Source: Aeropyrum camini SY1 = JCM 12091 (GTDB taxonomy: Archaea > Thermoproteota > Thermoprotei_A > Sulfolobales > Acidilobaceae). From it: a DNA stretch of 64,000 bases. Below are positions 1-16,144 of this stretch, in pieces. A program made the translations under genes and the position numbers. The notes below the pieces were generated by a model. That model did no database searches. It was not told the DNA's origin and saw only the letters and a program-made list of their open reading frames with translations. Positions within the stretch are counted from its first letter, which is position 1. Each line of letters starts with the position of its first letter. The stretch is taken from positions 1,240,001-1,304,000 of the forward strand of contig NC_022521.1 in NCBI RefSeq assembly GCF_000591035.1, written 5' to 3'.

Positions 1-187
1 CCTTCCCCAGAGCCCTCGATACTATAATTACCTCGTAACCGAGATCTTGGAGGAGGCGTGTAAGATCCCTTACATGCGACTGCACCCCTCCCACTGAGCT
101 AGGGTGGAAGTCCATAACCATGGCTATCCTAGAGCCCCTGGGGGGAGGGCTGCTCTCGAGGTCCTCGACCCTTTTTAGACCGCCCAA
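1..187 (-). CDS. Glycosyltransferase family 4-like protein, N-terminal fragment cut by the window edge
   Basis: The minus strand is open from a TTG at 187 to the window edge. The translation contains RIAMVMDFHPSSVGGVQSHV, followed by a helix and a second strand ending in VIIVSR. This is the usual first beta-alpha-beta unit of GT-B glycosyltransferases of family 4, where the glycine-rich GGV turn starts the first helix. An ATG at 121 is also in frame, but starting there would cut into the first beta strand, so the TTG at 187 fits better. Nothing after about 62 residues is visible, so the sugar donor and acceptor cannot be named. Confidence 0.6.
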   Translation of the reverse strand, partial: MGGLKRVEDLESSPPPRGSRIAMVMDFHPSSVGGVQSHVRDLTRLLQDLGYEVIIVSRALGK

Positions 188-260
188 CGCTGTTCACCGT
201 TAACCAGTAGGTTGTTGAGCTTTAGATTGGGCTGCGGAAAGCGTGTTGCCAGGGGTAATC

Positions 261-268
261 TTTATATT
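261..268 (+). promoter_or_regulatory. TATA box of the homoserine kinase gene
   Basis: The octamer tttatatt lies about 26-30 bases upstream of a probable start near 290. That leaves a leader of roughly 30 bases before the TTG start at 322. Position and composition fit an archaeal TATA element; no experiment supports it. Confidence 0.45.
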
Positions 269-321
269 GTCAAGAGGTATTATCAAAACCCCTTAGAAAG
301 CCGTGGGGGTGTCTAGATGCT

Positions 322-1266
322 TTGGCCTGCTCCAGAGCTAGGGCTAGGGCTTACTCCTCCGCAGCCAACCTAGGCCCCGGCTTCGACGCTCTAGCGGTGG
401 CTTTGAATGCTTACTACGACGAGGTTGAGGCTAAAATCTGCACCGGCCGTGGAGGCGGCGTTTATGTGGATAGGGTGGAGGGCAAGTTCTCGGTAGGCGT
501 CTCGCCAGGTTCCAACACAGCCGCAGAAGCAGTTCGGGAGCTACTTAATAGCGAGGGTGTTGAGGCCGAGGTCGAGATTAGGATATACAAGGGCGTGCCG
601 CCTGGCAGAGGGCTAGGCAGCAGCGGGGCTTCTGCTGCTGCAGCGGTTGTTGCAGTGTCTCACGCTCTAGACATGGAACTCGCCAAGGAGAAGCTAGTAT
701 TCTATGCAGGGGCGGGCGAGAGGGCGGCGGCTGGGCAGCCCCATTTCGACAATGCAGCCGCCAGTATACTCGGCGGGCTTGCTATAGTAGCCAGCGACTC
801 TGCGGGCAGGCTCCGCGTCTTCACTGTCCCGTTGGAGGCTTGGTTCTCGGTGGTGACGCCGATGAACCCTGTCCCGGAGGGTAAGACGGGTGTGATGAGG
901 AGTGTGCTACCGGAGAGAGTCGGTTTCGGCGAGGCAGTGAGGAACTTCTCGAGGGCGGCAGGCATTGTAGCGGCCGCGGTTAACGGCGATCTAGAGTCGA
1001 TGGGGGCTCTCATGATGTCTGACGAGATAGTGGAGCCTCGTAGAAGGAGTTACGTGCCGTGCTATAGCCAGGTGAGAAAGGCAGCCCTCCATGCGGGCGC
1101 ACTAGGCTTCACACTAAGCGGAGCTGGCCCCTCCATGGTAGCTCTGGCTGCTAGCAGGGAGGCGGCGGTTGAGATAGCGTCTGCCATGGAGGAGGCCTGC
1201 GCATGCTGCGAGAACCCTCTGGCTACCGTTGCTGAGCCCGGCCCAGGAGCCTATCTAGTAGGGTGA
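322..1266 (+). CDS. thrB: Homoserine kinase (GHMP kinase family)
   Basis: It phosphorylates L-homoserine to O-phospho-L-homoserine with ATP in threonine synthesis. The 314 residues match the family length. The GHMP ATP-binding motif PPGRGLGSSGASAAA lies at about 93-107, the N-terminal SSAANLGPGFD substrate motif at 12-22, and the C-terminal LSGAGPSMVAL motif near 263-273. The start is TTG with a G-rich Shine-Dalgarno sequence (ggggg) about 12 bases upstream. An ATG at 317 is out of frame. The next gene begins 6 bases after the stop, so the two are almost certainly co-transcribed. Confidence 0.93.
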   Translation: MACSRARARAYSSAANLGPGFDALAVALNAYYDEVEAKICTGRGGGVYVDRVEGKFSVGVSPGSNTAAEAVRELLNSEGVEAEVEIRIYKGVPPGRGLGSSGASAAAAVVAVSHALDMELAKEKLVFYAGAGERAAAGQPHFDNAAASILGGLAIVASDSAGRLRVFTVPLEAWFSVVTPMNPVPEGKTGVMRSVLPERVGFGEAVRNFSRAAGIVAAAVNGDLESMGALMMSDEIVEPRRRSYVPCYSQVRKAALHAGALGFTLSGAGPSMVALAASREAAVEIASAMEEACACCENPLATVAEPGPGAYLVG

Positions 1267-1272
1267 TGTGCT

Positions 1273-2442
1273 GTGGGTTGGGTTACAAGGTGGGTTAGAG
1301 GCGGCTGGAGGCCTTCGAAAGACCCGGCTAGAGAGCCTGTGGTGCCTCCCGTGAGCGTATCAGCTATCTACGTCCACCCTCCCGGCAGCTTTGAGCGCGA
1401 GTATCCTAGAGTAGGCGATCTTAAGTATGGGCGGGAGAACAACCCTACAGTGCTAGGCTTCGAGGAGGCCCTGGCTAGCCTGGAGGAAGGCCGCTGGGCA
1501 CTTGCCTTCAACAGTGGGATGGCTGCACTCTCTACACTAGTATTCTACGAGATAGCCAGAGGGGCTCGGAGGATTCTTCTTGAACGGCTAACTTACGGCT
1601 CCACGAGAAGCCTTCTAGAAATGGTTTCCTCGATAACCGGGGTCGAGGTTAGGCTGGCTGGCCCCCCATGGGAGAGCCTCCTAGACCTCGTCTGCTGGTC
1701 TGACCTGGTTATAGTGGAGTCGATGGCCAACCCAACACTCAGAGTACCGCCTCTGAGCGAGGTCTATGGGGAGGCGAGAAGCTGTGGTGCTAGGGTTGTA
1801 GTAGACAATACATTCGCGACGCCAGTAGCATATAGGCCGCTGGAGGGGGGGGCTCGCTATTCCCTTGAGAGCCTTACCAAATACATCTCAGGGCATAACG
1901 ACGTTGTCGGCGGCTCCATATCGGGCGGTTTTGATGACGATCTTGAACCGCTTTGGAACATGAGAAAGATCATGGGAACTATTATGCAGCCTATAGACGC
2001 CTACCTGGCGTGGCGCGGAATGAAGACGCTCAAACCCAGGTTTGAAGCCCAGTCCAAGGCTGCTCTGGAGGTTGCTGAGTGGCTTGAGAGCCGTGAGAAG
2101 GTGAAGAGGGTTTACTACCCAGGGCTTCCCAGCCATCCGGACCACGAGCTGGCTAGGAAGGAGCTGAACGGGCTCTACGGTGCAGTGGTGAGCTTCGAGA
2201 TAGGGGGGGGAAGGGGGGAGGTGTTCAGGCTACTCTCGAGGCTGAAGCTTGTGACGCCCAGCCCGAGTTTCGGAGGGGTCGAGACGATTATATCTTATCC
2301 AGCCATATCCAGCCACAGCAACCTAGACCCCGTGGAGAGGGCTGAGCTTGGTATAACCGAGGGGCTGCTGAGGCTGAGCGTTGGTCTTGAAGATGTGGCT
2401 GACGTCATCAGCGATTTATCACAAGCTCTCTCGGCAATATAG
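1273..2442 (+). CDS. Cystathionine gamma-synthase/lyase-type PLP enzyme
   Basis: This is a fold-type I PLP enzyme of the Cys/Met metabolism family, 389 residues. The phosphate-site motif KYGRENNPT is near 51-59, the aspartate that contacts the pyridine nitrogen is in VDNTFATP at 177-184, and the Schiff-base lysine is K203 in SLTKYISGHND. The start is GTG. The family covers cystathionine gamma-synthase, gamma-lyase and O-acylhomoserine sulfhydrylase, and sequence reading alone does not separate these. The 6-base spacing from homoserine kinase suggests use of O-phosphohomoserine, as in plant cystathionine gamma-synthase; that is inference. Confidence 0.85.
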   Translation: MGWVTRWVRGGWRPSKDPAREPVVPPVSVSAIYVHPPGSFEREYPRVGDLKYGRENNPTVLGFEEALASLEEGRWALAFNSGMAALSTLVFYEIARGARRILLERLTYGSTRSLLEMVSSITGVEVRLAGPPWESLLDLVCWSDLVIVESMANPTLRVPPLSEVYGEARSCGARVVVDNTFATPVAYRPLEGGARYSLESLTKYISGHNDVVGGSISGGFDDDLEPLWNMRKIMGTIMQPIDAYLAWRGMKTLKPRFEAQSKAALEVAEWLESREKVKRVYYPGLPSHPDHELARKELNGLYGAVVSFEIGGGRGEVFRLLSRLKLVTPSPSFGGVETIISYPAISSHSNLDPVERAELGITEGLLRLSVGLEDVADVISDLSQALSAI

Positions 2443-2557
2443 AACAAGCACCCGCTCTAAGCAACACAGTATCACCGTGTGAATACACCAGTATCATTTA
2501 CGCTGAACCCCCTACCCTATACAGCGTTCATAACTTTTTCCCGGGTGCCAGAGGAGA

Positions 2558-2890
2558 ATGGCTGTACCCTTCCTCTGGAGGCAGGCTATCAGCCTTTCCG
2601 AGTTTTACAGGGAGATAGCCAAGGGCCAGAAAGACCCGTTTAAGAAGAGCATTCTAAACCTAGCGTCAATAGCGCTCGAGGAGCTTTCGGACGAGCTAGC
2701 CGCAGGGGCGGTGAGAGAGGCTACCAGGAAGAAGCTCATGTATATCAGGGATATGATGAGGCACAACAATATGCCGCACTACAGCCTAGACAAGATAATA
2801 GAGAGAGTGTCGAGGACAGCGTGGAACGGTGTTCCAGTGGGGAGCCCTGGCGGTATAGGGGGTTACGAGTACCTGCTAGGCCTCACGTAG
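2558..2890 (+). CDS. Conserved-looking small protein, function unknown
   Basis: I do not recognise this 110-residue protein. It starts with ATG after a G-rich stretch (ccagaggag) that can serve as ribosome binding site. Residues 8-95 look wholly alpha-helical and are rich in charged residues, with no signal peptide, membrane segment or cysteine pair. The C-terminal 20 residues are glycine-rich (VPVGSPGGIGGYEYLLGL). A run of T and A just upstream (ataacttttt, about 2529-2538) could be its promoter. Codon use is like that of its neighbours, which supports a real gene. Confidence 0.6.
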   Translation: MAVPFLWRQAISLSEFYREIAKGQKDPFKKSILNLASIALEELSDELAAGAVREATRKKLMYIRDMMRHNNMPHYSLDKIIERVSRTAWNGVPVGSPGGIGGYEYLLGLT

Positions 2891-2950
2891 CGATGGAGAT
2901 TCATATTCTACGGTATTAGCGAGCGATGGCCATGGTGTTGAGAGTGTTGC

Positions 2951-3382
2951 TCACAGCTTAAGCCTCATAGCCCTCGACGCGGTAACCTCCTCTAGCTCCC
3001 GCTGGCTGCATACTTTCCTGCCGCCCTCAGAAGCTTCGAGTCTTAGAAGATTGAGTAGCCTCAATAGACTATCCTTAGACAGACCTACAATATATATTAC
3101 ATCAAACTTCTCGGCTGGCTTCAGCTCAGAGAGCTGTTTAAGTCCTAGCGAGATTATCTTCACGTGCAGTGCTGGATTGCGGATTCTAGCAGATCCCGCT
3201 GTACGGTCCTCAAGCATGTAGAGGTATGCTATAGCTACCTTACACGGCCCGGGATCCTCATCCCCCGTGTAGTACACGGTAACCGGATCCTCGCCCGCTT
3301 GCAACTCCTCGTCAGGCTGTTTGGGAGGAGGTTCTACTCTGGCTAGGTAGATGGGGATGAGGGGAGTGTGGATCTCAAACAT
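2951..3382 (-). CDS. Hypothetical protein coupled to the ubiquitin-like/PRTase fusion gene
   Basis: The ATG at 3382 gives 143 residues beginning MFEIHTPLIPIYLA. It overlaps the 3' end of the upstream gene (stop at 3375) by 8 bases, a typical coupled arrangement. An in-frame start at 3412 would intrude further into the upstream gene. The protein alternates predicted strands and helices (VTVYYTGDEDPG; KFDVIYIVGLSKDSLLRLLNLL), giving a Rossmann-like impression, but I see no catalytic motif. It probably works with the fusion protein in the same operon; its function is unknown. Confidence 0.6.
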   Translation of the reverse strand: MFEIHTPLIPIYLARVEPPPKQPDEELQAGEDPVTVYYTGDEDPGPCKVAIAYLYMLEDRTAGSARIRNPALHVKIISLGLKQLSELKPAEKFDVIYIVGLSKDSLLRLLNLLRLEASEGGRKVCSQRELEEVTASRAMRLKL

Positions 3383-4196
3383 TATAGCCCGATGCCCTGA
3401 GCTCCTCCTCAACCTCCCTCCTCTCCCATGGGAACACGATCCACTTATCCAGGCTCTTAGAGTAGTAGTCTGGCACCAGGTTTGTCCAGGGCTTTATATA
3501 TAGTGTGGCTGTCTTTACCTGGGCTGGAAGGTAGAGGTCAACAGCCTCTATAGCGTGTTGCAGGGTTAAACCAGAGTCGCTAACGTCATCCACTATAAGA
3601 ACATTCTTGTCTTTAACCTCTATCACGAGCGGCTGTCTTAGGAAGGGTCTCGGCTTCCTAACCCCCACGGATGTGTAGAGCTTAATCTCGACCACACCTA
3701 TATTCTTGACGCCTAGAGCGTCGGCGAGGAGGAGGGCGGGGACAATGCCGCCCCTCAGTATACCAACTATGACTTCCGGCTCGAAACCGCTCCTAACTAT
3801 CTTATCGGCGACATCACTAACAGCATGCTCTATATCCCTCCACGTGAGGTGTATAAGCTCAACCCTCCTACCACTAACCTCCTTTGAACCCCCGTGGGTT
3901 ACTGGCAGCACAATAACCTCCTCCTCCACCTCCTGGTCCTCTGGCAGTAGGCGGTAGTCGACTCCATCGACGAAAACCAGGTAGCCTGGCTTAGGCCTCC
4001 CCTCCTCGTCTATAGCCTCCTTAAGCCCCTCAACCTGCTCAACAGCCTTCCTCAAAACAGCACTCCAGCCAAGCTCTCCGCCCTCAACCTCTATGATCTC
4101 CCTTCCAACCCTCTCCCTAAGGCCTCCCATTAGCCTGACTCTAACCTTCCTACTAGTGGAGCTAGAACCTCCCTCCGTCGAATAGACGCTATTCAT
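3375..4196 (-). CDS. Ubiquitin-like (MoaD/ThiS) domain fused to a phosphoribosyltransferase
   Basis: The 273 residues hold two modules. Residues 17-103 have a beta-grasp pattern of the MoaD/ThiS/SAMP type (VRVRLMGGLRERVG; YLVFVDGVDYRLL; EEEVIVLPVTHGG), ending in the di-glycine at 102-103 that these carriers normally have as their free C-terminus. After a six-residue linker, residues 110-273 form a type I phosphoribosyltransferase: hood strand VELIHLTWRDIEHAV, PPi loop VGILRGGIVPA at 144-154, and PRPP motif VLIVDDVSDSGLTL at 199-212. The transferase resembles crenarchaeal xanthine/guanine-type enzymes, but the base is not certain. No frame break separates the modules. The head-to-tail order with an internal GG recalls ubiquitin precursor fusions. 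Confidence 0.85.
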   Translation of the reverse strand: MNSVYSTEGGSSSTSRKVRVRLMGGLRERVGREIIEVEGGELGWSAVLRKAVEQVEGLKEAIDEEGRPKPGYLVFVDGVDYRLLPEDQEVEEEVIVLPVTHGGSKEVSGRRVELIHLTWRDIEHAVSDVADKIVRSGFEPEVIVGILRGGIVPALLLADALGVKNIGVVEIKLYTSVGVRKPRPFLRQPLVIEVKDKNVLIVDDVSDSGLTLQHAIEAVDLYLPAQVKTATLYIKPWTNLVPDYYSKSLDKWIVFPWERREVEEELRASGYNV

Positions 4197-4361: not shown

Positions 4362-4586
4362 TTATATCCTAGCAGACGCCTCCTCAGCCTTCTTCCTCTT
4401 GGCCGCCATATTGACGAGGTGTGTTATATAGCCTGCTATCTGGTTTCTAAGCTTCTTACTCCTATACTCTATGAGCTGTGATACTACTTTTTTATTGTGC
4501 TCGAAGTCGCCTGTGAAGAGATCAGGATACTTTTCGAGAAGCCTTCTAGCAGTCCTCTTAACAAGCCTTATTCTAACCTTACCCAT
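4362..4586 (-). CDS. rps17e: 30S ribosomal protein S17e
   Basis: This 74-residue basic protein belongs to the small subunit family shared by archaea and eukaryotes and absent from bacteria. It begins MGKVRIRLVKRTARRLLEKY, followed by the family signature FEHNKKVV and the helix around SKKLRNQIAGYITHLV. Length and sequence match archaeal S17e. It starts with ATG and appears to be transcribed alone. Confidence 0.95.
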   Translation of the reverse strand: MGKVRIRLVKRTARRLLEKYPDLFTGDFEHNKKVVSQLIEYRSKKLRNQIAGYITHLVNMAAKRKKAEEASARI

Positions 4587-4729: not shown

Positions 4730-6394
4730 ATGGTTGACCGGGTGATAGAGATGGCGGTTCAGCAGCCTATGACAGAGCCTGTAGGTATCCCAGTTATAAT
4801 ACTCAAGGAGGGCACCCAGAGGTCCTACGGCCGTGAGGCCCTCAGAGCCAACATAATGGCTGTAAGAGCTATAGCCCAGATTCTGAAAACGACCTACGGC
4901 CCGAAAGGCATGGATAAAATGCTGGTCGATAGCCTGGGCGACATCACTATAACGAACAACGGAGCCACCATACTGGACAAGATGGATGTGGCCCACCCTG
5001 CTGCCAAGATGCTTGTGCAGATAAGTAAGGGCCAGGAGGATGAGGCGGGCGACGGGACTAAGACCACCGTCATATTCGCGGGCGAGCTTCTGAAGGAGGC
5101 TGAGAAGCTTCTAGACATTAATATCCACCCGACGATAATTGTGGAGGGCTATAAAGAGGCCCTCAGGAAGGCCAGCGAGGTTATAGAGTCTATAGCCGAG
5201 CCCGTCTCCTATGACGATGTTGAGAAGCTGAAGCTAATAGCCAAGACCAGCCTCAACAGCAAGGCTGTAGCCGAGGCTAGAGACTACTTCGCGGACCTCG
5301 CAGTAGAGGCCGTCAGGACCATAGCCGAGAAGAGGGGCGACAAGTGGTATGTCGACCTGAACAACATACAGATCGTCAAGAAGCATGGCGGCAGCCTAAG
5401 GGACACCAGGCTGGTCAGGGGTATAGTGCTCGACAAAGAGGTTGTCCACCCCGACATGCCCAGGAGGGTTGAGAACGCCAAGATAGCGCTACTCGACACG
5501 CCTCTAGAGATAGAGAAGCCCGAGATAGACCTGGAGATTAGCATAACCAGCCCCGAGCAGATAAAGGCCCTCTATGAGAAGCAGGAGAGGATACTCCAGG
5601 AGAAGATCGAGAAGATCGCCGCTACCGGTGCTAACGTCGTGATCACCCAGAAGGGCATCGACGACGTGGCCCAGCACTTCCTGGCGAAGAAGGGTATACT
5701 GGCTGTGAGGAGGGTGAAGAGGAGCGACATAGAGAAGATAGCCAGGGCTACGGGCGCTAGGATTGTGACCGACATAGACGATCTCAGGCCCGAGGACCTC
5801 GGCTACGCCGAGCTGGTTGAGGAGAGGAAGGTCGGAGAGGATAAGATGGTGTTCATAGAGGGCGCCAAGAACCCGAAGAGCGTCACCATACTACTCAGAG
5901 GCGGCTTCGAGAGGCTAGTCGACGAGGCTGAGAGGGCCCTCCACGACGCCCTCAGCGTAGTGGCCGACGCCATAATGGATGGTAAGATTGTGGCTGGCGG
6001 CGGCGCCGTCGAGGCGGAGATCGCTAAGGTGCTGTACGAGTACTCCTCTAAGCTGCCTGGCAAGACACAGCTGGCGGTCGAGGCCTTCGCTAGGGCTGTT
6101 GAGGCTCTACCCCAGGCCCTAGCCCACAACGCTGGCCACGACCCGATAGAGGTTCTCGTCAAGCTGAGGAGTGCCCACGAGAGGCCTGAGAACAAGTGGT
6201 ACGGCGTAGACCTGGACACTGGCGATATAGTGGACATGTGGAGCAGGGGAGTGCTAGAGCCTATGAGGGTTAAGCTCAACGCGCTGAAGGCTGCTACAGA
6301 GGTGGCCTCCCTAATACTGAGGATCGACGACGTCATAGCCGCTAGGAAGGAAGAGGAGGAGAAGGAGGAGAAGAAGGGCGGGGAGGAGGAGTAA
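4730..6394 (+). CDS. thsB: Thermosome (group II chaperonin) subunit
   Basis: This is an ATP-driven folding chamber subunit of 554 residues. The family signatures are intact: KTTYGPKGMDKMLV at 53-66, ITNNGATIL at 74-82, GDGTKTTV at 107-114 and the hydrolytic region MDGKIVAGGGAVEAEIA in the second half. The C-terminus ends in a Glu/Lys/Gly-rich tail (EEEEKEEKKGGEEE), as in other archaeal thermosomes. An in-frame ATG at 4751 gives the more usual N-terminus, so either start is possible. By neighbourhood I take it for the beta subunit of A. pernix; the alpha/beta choice is less certain than the family. Confidence 0.95.
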   Translation: MVDRVIEMAVQQPMTEPVGIPVIILKEGTQRSYGREALRANIMAVRAIAQILKTTYGPKGMDKMLVDSLGDITITNNGATILDKMDVAHPAAKMLVQISKGQEDEAGDGTKTTVIFAGELLKEAEKLLDINIHPTIIVEGYKEALRKASEVIESIAEPVSYDDVEKLKLIAKTSLNSKAVAEARDYFADLAVEAVRTIAEKRGDKWYVDLNNIQIVKKHGGSLRDTRLVRGIVLDKEVVHPDMPRRVENAKIALLDTPLEIEKPEIDLEISITSPEQIKALYEKQERILQEKIEKIAATGANVVITQKGIDDVAQHFLAKKGILAVRRVKRSDIEKIARATGARIVTDIDDLRPEDLGYAELVEERKVGEDKMVFIEGAKNPKSVTILLRGGFERLVDEAERALHDALSVVADAIMDGKIVAGGGAVEAEIAKVLYEYSSKLPGKTQLAVEAFARAVEALPQALAHNAGHDPIEVLVKLRSAHERPENKWYGVDLDTGDIVDMWSRGVLEPMRVKLNALKAATEVASLILRIDDVIAARKEEEEKEEKKGGEEE

Positions 6395-14522: not shown

Positions 14523-14942
14523 ATGAGCGTAAACTATGCAACGCTGGGCGACCTGAAGAAGGGGAGCTATATAGTTATTGACGGCGAGCCCTGCAGGATC
14601 GTGGAGATGAGCAGGGCTAAGACTGGGAAGCACGGGAGCGCGAAGGCCCATGTTGTTGCTATATGCATCTTCTCCGGGCAGAAGAAGAGCCTGGTGGCCC
14701 CTGTTGACACCAGGGTCCAGATTCCCGTGATAGAGAAGAGGCTGGGCCAGGTGCTGGCTGACATGGGTGACATGCTCCAGATAATGGATCTGGAGACCTA
14801 CGACACGTTCGAGGTTGAGAAGCCCGGGGGTAGCGAGGAGGAGGAGCAGCTGGCCGCTAAGCTGCAGCCGGGAGTCACAGTGGAGTACTGGCTTATAATG
14901 GGCAAGCCGAAGATAATCAGGATAAGGAGCTCCTCCGGCTAG
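14523..14942 (+). CDS. eif5A: Translation initiation/elongation factor aIF5A
   Basis: 139 residues of the eIF5A family, which promotes peptide bond formation on difficult sequences. The hypusination (or deoxyhypusination) site is the lysine in KTGKHGSAK at about 37, which is strictly conserved. The C-terminal OB domain follows ([20 protein letters not shown]). The start is ATG. Its 3' end overlaps the convergent TtuA-like gene by 26 bases. Confidence 0.95.
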
Positions 14943-15912
14943 CCCCTAGCCCCAGCTCCTCCGCCCTCCTCCTAAACCACTCTCTGACGACAGGCCCCAT
15001 AGGCCTCCCAAGAGCCCTCCTAGTCACCCTGCAGAAGCTGCACTCCCCACCTGAGGATAGGAGGCCGCAGGAGGGGCATCTGCCTATGGAGCCCCCGGGC
15101 TTAGGATAGTCCTCAACCCTCTTGGCGAGCTTGGACACCATCTGAAGCTTCAGCCCCGGCCTCTTATCCTCGAGCTGGTTCACAGTCTCCTTCAGCTCCA
15201 CCTCCATCTGCCGTCTGTCTACGAAGGGGCACTCCTCGTGGAGGAAGGGGAGTCCCGCTAGGAGGGAGTAGAGGAAGCTCTCCTTCTCGTACACGTAGTA
15301 TAGCGGCCTGATCCTACCCACTGCCACGCCGGGTATGCTCTCCGTTCTGACGCCGAGCTTGGATATCGCCTCGAGGTCCTGGTTGAGGAAGGACTTCAGG
15401 TTGTACACCGCTATATCGTCTGCGTTGTGGCCTAGGGCCACAGCATCAGCCGCCAGCTCCACTGCGGCGGCGTTTATGACGTAGCGTTTAACCATGCCGC
15501 ATACACTGCAGGGCGGCCGTTTAGAGGCCCGTGCGAGCTCAGGTATGCCAGCGCCGAGGACCTCCTTAAGGTCGAAAACTATGAGGGGCACGTTAAGCTG
15601 GCGGGCGAGCCTGAGAGAGGCCTCCCTACTCTTCTCCGAGTAGTCGTAGATGCCCAGATGTATATAGAGAGCCACCAGCTCGAAGCCTAGCTTGCCCGAG
15701 AGCCTCGAGAGGACGGCGAGAAGTGTAGAGCTGTCCTTACCGCCGGATACGGCGGCCAGAACCCTCTGCCCCCTTCTAACAAGCCTGTGCCTCAGTATAG
15801 CCCTCTCGACTTTCGACTCGACGAACTCGAGATAGTGGTCCCTGCACATGTACCTTTTCTGGTACCTGATATATGCTACCGCGGGTGCGCCGCAGACGCT
15901 GCACCTAGCCAC
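14917..15912 (-). CDS. ttuA: TtuA/NcsA-type tRNA thiolation enzyme
   Basis: A PP-loop ATPase that adenylates tRNA uridine (or cytidine) and inserts sulfur. The 331 residues show the complete family layout: N-terminal zinc site C4, C7, C23 and H26; PP-loop SGGKDS at 56-61; Fe-S cluster ligands C135, C138 and C228 ([14 protein letters not shown]); and a C-terminal zinc ribbon (RCPSCG, CSFC). In Thermus and Pyrococcus the enzyme thiolates U54 of tRNA for heat stability. The ubiquitin-like sulfur carrier gene overlaps its start by 8 bases, which strongly supports this role. Confidence 0.92.
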
Positions 15913-16144
15913 CGGAGAGCACCCTCACAACTTCCACAGACTCCCCTGGGGATACGAGGTCCTCGGGGAGCAGAGGCTTCCCGTCCCTGAGCACGACGGC
16001 CACCTCCTCGTTCATACCCAAAATCCTCAGCAGCTCGCCCGCCTTAAGCGGCCTGCCAGCCTCTACAACCTTCTCCACGCCCTCGGGCACAAGCCTGACC
16101 TTGATCTCCCCCCCTCCCAAGCCATCTACACCCAGTATAAACAT
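15905..16144 (-). CDS. TtuB/ThiS-like ubiquitin-fold sulfur carrier
   Basis: 79 residues with a beta-grasp pattern ([45 protein letters not shown]) and a free C-terminal di-glycine, as required for adenylation and thiocarboxylation. The ATG at 16144 is upstream of the TtuA-like gene, with an 8-base overlap. By analogy with TtuB of Thermus it would hand sulfur to the neighbouring TtuA and might also be conjugated to proteins as a SAMP. The E1-like activating enzyme is not in this window. Confidence 0.85.
   Translation of the reverse strand: MFILGVDGLGGGEIKVRLVPEGVEKVVEAGRPLKAGELLRILGMNEEVAVVLRDGKPLLPEDLVSPGESVEVVRVLSGG

Follow-up and report, generated by a model that had tools for sequence, protein, structure and literature searches.

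Urm1 is a ubiquitin-like tag that is active only with a free Gly-Gly end. In Aeropyrum camini, a ubiquitin-like domain (Ubl) of this kind runs on through its di-glycine into a complete phosphoribosyltransferase (PRT), and the locus raises the question of whether the protein is cut after the GG or whether the Ubl stays in place as a fixed docking domain. We analysed the locus in a window of 64,000 nucleotides (positions 1,240,001-1,304,000 of a genome that consists of one contig, 1,595,994 bases long) and compared it with the genomes of related archaea.

A Urm1-like domain and a phosphoribosyltransferase in one frame

The fusion gene is read without interruption from an ATG at 4196 to a stop codon that ends at 3375 (Table 1). 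The original prediction had placed a fusion with an internal GG at these positions, and its coordinates are right.

Table 1. Features of the fusion gene and of its surroundings in the window
Feature	Position	Strand	Evidence or remark
Urm1-PRT fusion gene, 273 aa	3375..4196	-	single open frame, no in-frame stop
N-terminal 16-residue extension, MNSVYSTEGGSSSTSR	4149..4196	-	low model confidence; most relatives unaligned here
Urm1-like beta-grasp domain, residues 17-103	3888..4148	-	NF053661, PDB profile, modelled strands/helices
His-Gly-Gly, residues 101-103; predicted cleavage site after G103	3888..3896	-	conservation; stop directly after HGG in unfused homologues
Variable linker, residues 104-118 (SKEVSGRRVELIHLT)	3843..3887	-	no in-frame ATG/GTG/TTG
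PRT domain, HGXPRT (GpT-2) type, residues 114-273	3375..3857	-	PF00156, GpT-2 4z1o, fold match 4zfn
PRPP-binding loop VDDVSDSG, residues 202-209	3570..3593	-	invariant positions in all fusions
Gene of ribosomal protein S17e, conserved neighbour upstream of urm1	4362..4586	-	NF002242 2.4e-30
Thermosome (HSP60) gene, divergent	4730..6394	+	same neighbourhood as Sulfolobales urm1
TtuA/Ncs6-type tRNA thiolation enzyme, overlaps the SAMP2-like Ubl gene	14917..15912	-	PF22082 TtuA_LIM_N, PF01171
SAMP2/TtuB-like free Ubl, 79 aa, ends LSGG-stop	15905..16144	-	PF21965 SAMP2 7.8e-7

To the NCBIfam model Urm1_like (NF053661) residues 19-103 matched with an E of 6.8e-10 and 39 bits, against a curated cut-off of 70, and the match to the archaeal MoaD family was weaker (E 0.046). 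A profile of the Ubl and its relatives searched against the PDB retrieved yeast Urm1, a SAMP1 homologue and MoaD, the best five hits lying between E 1.8e-9 and 1e-7, with the Sulfolobales Urm1 chain 4wwm as the best. PF09138 matched the Ubl of two of ten relatives and did not match the A. camini member alone. Judged by the Urm1_like match and the Urm1 structures found with the profile, 'Urm1-like' is a more exact label than 'MoaD/ThiS-like', so that the earlier description of a MoaD/ThiS-like beta-grasp domain ending in THGG stands for the fold and the ending and has to be changed for the family. No Urm1-like gene besides the fusion was detected in the A. camini genome or in G027.

The claim of a complete PRT behind the Ubl was borne out. 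Residues 114-265 matched PF00156 (E 6.3e-25), the domain is ~40% identical to the Sulfolobus solfataricus HGXPRT GpT-2 (4z1o, E 2.2e-40), and 4zfn was the top match of a fold search (TM 0.85 on target). The PRPP loop is intact, with V202, D203, D204, S206, D207 and G209 invariant in all fusions, and the C-terminal KPW...FPWE motifs are present. From these similarities we predict that the PRT half is an HGXPRT active on hypoxanthine, guanine and xanthine; GpT-2 itself differs from it in being a stand-alone enzyme without Urm1.

The AlphaFold model of the fusion has two confidently folded parts, the Ubl part with the strands and helices of a beta-grasp. Residues 102-108, comprising the Gly-Gly and linker, form the only interior segment with a pLDDT below 50, and according to the model the HGG junction is disordered or flexible between two folded domains. 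The N-terminal extension is also modelled with low confidence (pLDDT below 50 at residues 1-4, block mean of 49 over residues 1-10), and most relatives can be aligned only from residue 12-20. The Ubl domain ends in PVTHGG, its HGG being encoded by CAC GGG GGT (3896..3888), and the G027 fusion, 88% identical to that of A. camini, has the same junction, PVTHGGSKEVSG. A small ORF without family match lies at 2951-3412 on the minus strand of the window; its likely ATG, at 3382, falls within the end of the fusion gene, and the two are probably co-transcribed.

Distribution and origin of the fusion

Within the host family (f1), 42 of the 48 genomes carry the Urm1-PRT fusion in a single frame; the remainder are G116 and G169, with separate frames, one genome in which the locus is cut by a contig end and three drafts without a match. 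A search of 398 genomes of the phylum gave no fused frame outside f1 among the matches listed, where every match spanning both domains has a stop between them. On these counts the fusion belongs to a single family, and we rejected the idea of a general crenarchaeal trait.

The HGG is invariant in all 42 fusions, and all four Gly codons occur at both Gly positions, so that no relative was found that keeps the fusion and has lost the GG. Besides HGG, 6 of 86 Ubl columns are invariant, and the conservation of the majority residue in the Ubl columns other than HGG averages 57% (42 species genomes). Behind the HGG the sequence varies: 12 different residues occupy the first position across the 42 fusions, and the distance from the GG to a conserved Trp ranges from 6 to 16 residues in relatives.

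The two genes are also found side by side. In families f4, f7, f8 and f10 urm1 and the PRT gene adjoin as separate genes, Urm1 ending in HGG-stop with the PRT immediately after; in f16, a family of another class within the same phylum, the two share a frame with one stop between them; and in two records of Nitrososphaeria/Geothermarchaeota (L047, L063) Urm1 ends in NGG-stop just before the PRT. Since the separate, adjoining pair occurs in other families and in another class, we take the urm1-PRT pair to be old and common to two archaeal classes, and the fusion to have arisen in the f1 ancestor by loss of the stop codon within it. In a tree of both domains all f1 members group together (support 0.98).

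In the same tree G116 and G169 are sisters nested within an otherwise fused genus. In both, a one-base shift right after the HGG splits the frame, the PRT overlaps in another frame, and the re-split Urm1 ends in HGG-VFGG-stop or HGG-MLGG-stop. Separate products are thus tolerated. It is curious that the re-split Urm1 frames (L168, L207) end in GG again four residues on, as HGGVFGG and HGGMLGG, be it by coincidence or as a selected new end.

Gene neighbourhood and the E1 and JAMM genes

The S17e gene adjoins Urm1 in nearly all loci examined in the order, fused or not. Makarova and Koonin described the Sulfolobales urm1 neighbourhood as S17e and a divergent thermosome gene (PMC2948915), and gene order marks the fusion gene as the positional counterpart of Sulfolobales urm1. 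The two have the domain, the HGG end and the S17e/thermosome neighbourhood in common, and differ in that Sulfolobales Urm1 (PMC4569737, PMC12625751) is a free protein ending at GG. In S. islandicus this protein modifies hundreds of sites, the thermosome subunits heavily among them, and could not be deleted, being essential (PMC12625751).

A second Ubl is encoded in the window. The free SAMP2-like protein with an SGG end probably serves tRNA thiolation, to judge from its position beside ttuA, and because it lies there the fused Urm1 need not do so. The view that the fused Urm1 is the sole Ubl, and so needed for tRNA thiolation, was rejected on the same ground. Given this free Ubl, the fused Urm1 is more likely a protein modifier than a tRNA-thiolation Ubl.

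The A. camini genome encodes a ThiF-type E1 (959188-959865 in genome coordinates, E 2.7e-70), and a ThiF match over the cut-off was obtained in 36 of 40 host-family genomes. It also encodes one JAMM protease of 128 aa (genome 467140-467451, E 6.9e-17), whose nearest solved relative in the PDB is PfJAMM1 (7e-25). The catalytic motif E...HxHx7SxxD is intact in the f1 JAMMs read, as E...HTHx7SxxD in A. camini, and the JAMM-type genes that the original prediction had proposed to look for are present with their motifs intact.

In an order sample of 147 genomes, a JAMM over the cut-off was present in 20 of 20 genomes with the Urm1-PRT fusion vs 1 of 14 with an adjacent, unfused pair (Fisher 1.5e-8, a value that overstates the association, as the counts share ancestry). 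It was also present in 28 of the 117 sample genomes without Urm1-PRT or Urm1-Cgi121 fusions. Family f11 has a free Urm1 of the Sulfolobales type, and none of its 21 genomes had a JAMM over the cut-off; in this too Sulfolobales Urm1 is unlike the fusion. Across the 48 f1 genomes a JAMM was found in 36 of the 42 with the fusion; five of the other six are drafts of 55-76% completeness, and the remaining one, G161, reaches 92% and is a real candidate exception, fused without a JAMM match. The re-split G116 has a JAMM, and the re-split G169 (87% complete) has none over the cut-off. As the split G116 keeps its JAMM, the protease has other work besides the fusion. We rejected the JAMM as a strict marker of the fusion, given the JAMM genes found without it and G161 with the fusion and no JAMM match.

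Two operons came to light among the JAMM loci. In family f7, a JAMM, a MoaD(AGG)-MoaE fusion and a ThiF E1 form one overlapping operon (L169, G018:C1:214500-218500, 85-2061, minus strand). In the host family, an operon on the minus strand (L167, G016:C5:187500-192500, 1230-3448) holds an E1-like gene with an N-terminal extension, an E2-like gene (UQ_con 2.6e-4) and a JAMM, and resembles the operons for ubiquitin-like conjugation of the bacterial type.

Proposed cleavage after the di-glycine and its alternatives

We consider it likely that the fusion is a precursor of the Urm1 modifier, derived from the urm1-PRT pair by stop loss and cut by the JAMM after the HGG, which would free both Urm1 and the PRT. 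In this proposal the ancestral pair would have lost the urm1 stop in the f1 ancestor, making Urm1 the N-terminal half of an HGXPRT, and the JAMM/MPN+ metalloprotease would cut after the conserved HGG, at G103, in the flexible junction. The cut would expose the C-terminal glycine of Urm1 for the ThiF-type E1 and release the PRT, which would not require a start codon of its own; the freed Urm1 would then be conjugated to proteins, as Sulfolobales Urm1 is to lysines (PMC4569737, PMC12625751). In 2006 Iyer et al. suggested that fused Ubls might be released by JAB proteins (PMC1779556). HvJAMM1 cleaves an artificial SAMP1-MoaE precisely behind its last Gly, and does so only if the GG is present (PMC4443979), DRJAMM cleaves the Deinococcus radiodurans MoaD-MoaE protein DR2607 (PMC8832034), and Mycobacterium tuberculosis MoaX requires cutting at its GG (Gly82) to work, by a protease that was not identified (PMC4326299).

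The original prediction had left two options, a cut behind the GG and a docking domain that stays in place. The invariant HGG, the HGG-stop of the unfused homologues, the JAMM and the re-splitting favour the cut on comparative grounds and disfavour docking. A fusion that stays whole, with Urm1 permanently attached to the PRT for regulation, dimerisation or docking (e.g. a handle for the E1, the thermosome or the proteasome), could draw on the age of the pair, found in two archaeal classes, whose proteins may work together, and on the conserved S17e-Urm1-thermosome linkage together with the heavy urmylation of the S. islandicus thermosome (PMC12625751). A fixed domain has no need of an HGG, yet all 42 fusions have retained it ahead of a variable linker, and diverged Ubls such as those of the Mut7-C fusions (Ub-Mut7C) are mostly without a conserved C-terminal glycine (Iyer et al., PMC1779556). 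It would moreover leave the cell without free Urm1 although the E1 and the JAMM are kept, and natural re-splitting survives in G116 and G169. We regard a fixed domain as the main rival, but as unlikely.

We hold it quite improbable that the precursor is cut by another protease or the proteasome, with the N-terminal Urm1 acting mainly as a degron that sets the PRT level. Such a role would fit the 20S proteasome of S. acidocaldarius, which in vitro takes up GFP or FBP with an N-terminal Urm1, degrades the Urm1 part and then stalls (PMC4569737), and it would accommodate G161, but proteasomal degradation has no known dependence on an intact HGG, though the HGG is invariant, and every genome of the order sample that has the fusion also has a JAMM. 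Two products could also be made by translation, from an internal start that yields free PRT, the long form being a minor by-product. An ATG, GTG or TTG does lie between the GG and the conserved Trp in 19 of the 42 fusions; the other 23, including the A. camini gene, have none, which led us to reject an internal PRT start as a general rule, and the positions of these codons are not conserved. Nor can an internal start yield a Urm1 ending in GG, and we give this reading very little credence. Single-base shifts do occur at the junction, in G116 and G169, but the probability that the fusion is an annotation or assembly artefact with a missed stop codon is practically nil: 42 genomes agree, several of them complete single contigs, and the linkers vary in length and sequence. 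Chance or artefact was rejected on the agreement of the 42 genomes.

The JAMM-cut precursor that we prefer has its closest likeness in the MoaD-MoaE fusions (MoaX, DR2607, SAMP1-MoaE), which also have an N-terminal Ubl, a GG at an internal junction and a complete enzyme behind it. In these the cut exactly after the GG is needed for a working Ubl, and by analogy we predict it for Urm1-PRT. Their halves belong together as the subunits of MPT synthase, whereas Urm1-PRT joins a modifier to an enzyme of purine salvage that is not known to need Urm1, the two being linked by conserved adjacency only. Eukaryotic ubiquitin-ribosomal protein precursors and CsUb/CsRpn11 (PMC6043591) are alike in that the modifier comes only as an N-terminal fusion, which a protease akin to a deubiquitinase would mature; the Urm1-PRT gene even adjoins that of ribosomal S17e. 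They differ in that the partner here is an enzyme and not a ribosomal protein, that the CsUb precursor has a tail of nine residues only vs a complete enzyme, and that in eukaryotes other, cytosolic DUBs process the precursors, unlike the JAMM processing predicted here.

With less confidence we lean towards a wider reading, in which a whole family makes Urm1, a protein that Sulfolobales cannot do without, solely in the form of a PRT-fused precursor, JAMM cleavage setting the free pool. The system would be an independently evolved archaeal counterpart of the ubiquitin-ribosomal protein precursors, with a sister system that has a Cgi121 tail.

We found no paper on a Ubl-PRT fusion in the open literature searched, although a supplementary table may list one, and the passages found in a 2024 archaeal fusion screen do not mention one. 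Nor did the literature yield usable Aeropyrum proteomics with N-terminal data. Of the novelty claimed earlier, only the partner is new to the literature searched; Ubl-enzyme precursors cut after GG were already known from MoaX and MoaD-MoaE. That literature gave no Urm1 modifier whose tail is an enzyme of purine salvage, fixed in a family and paired with a JAMM. Work on crenarchaeal Urm1 has so far treated it as mature from birth; should Aeropyrum and its family produce it as a fused precursor, this would be modifier maturation by JAMM outside cofactor synthesis, and the JAMM enzymes of f1 would gain a natural substrate. The family offers a natural experiment, with an ancestral separate pair, a fusion and one re-splitting, and the presence of a JAMM tracks these states for the most part. 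The old question of what lies behind the fusion of modifiers to abundant housekeeping proteins becomes testable in an organism with a single detectable Urm1 and one strong E1 of the ThiF type.

A second fusion, Urm1-HGG-Cgi121, occurs in nine genomes of family f2 and one of f5, both families of the same order as f1 (L154-L159, L222-L225). Pfam identified Cgi121, a KEOPS subunit, in the f5 member, and the others were assigned by alignment to it; the protein is reportedly absent from Sulfolobales and Desulfurococcales, as stated in 2010. All ten fusions keep the HGG and all ten genomes have a JAMM, which within f2 was present in 9 of 9 fused vs 4 of 12 unfused genomes (p = 0.005). A Ubl-Cgi121 fusion of Thaumarchaeota (PMC2948915) resembles Urm1-PRT in joining a Ubl to a conserved archaeal protein, beside S17 in some genomes, and is unlike it in its partner. 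G036, of the same genus as G004, which has the Urm1-Cgi121 fusion, keeps the two genes separate. The free Urm1 of G061 (L219) and that of G036 (L220), both in genomes with a JAMM, run two or three residues past the HGG (HGG-LSN, HGG-DI), short tails that would also need trimming.
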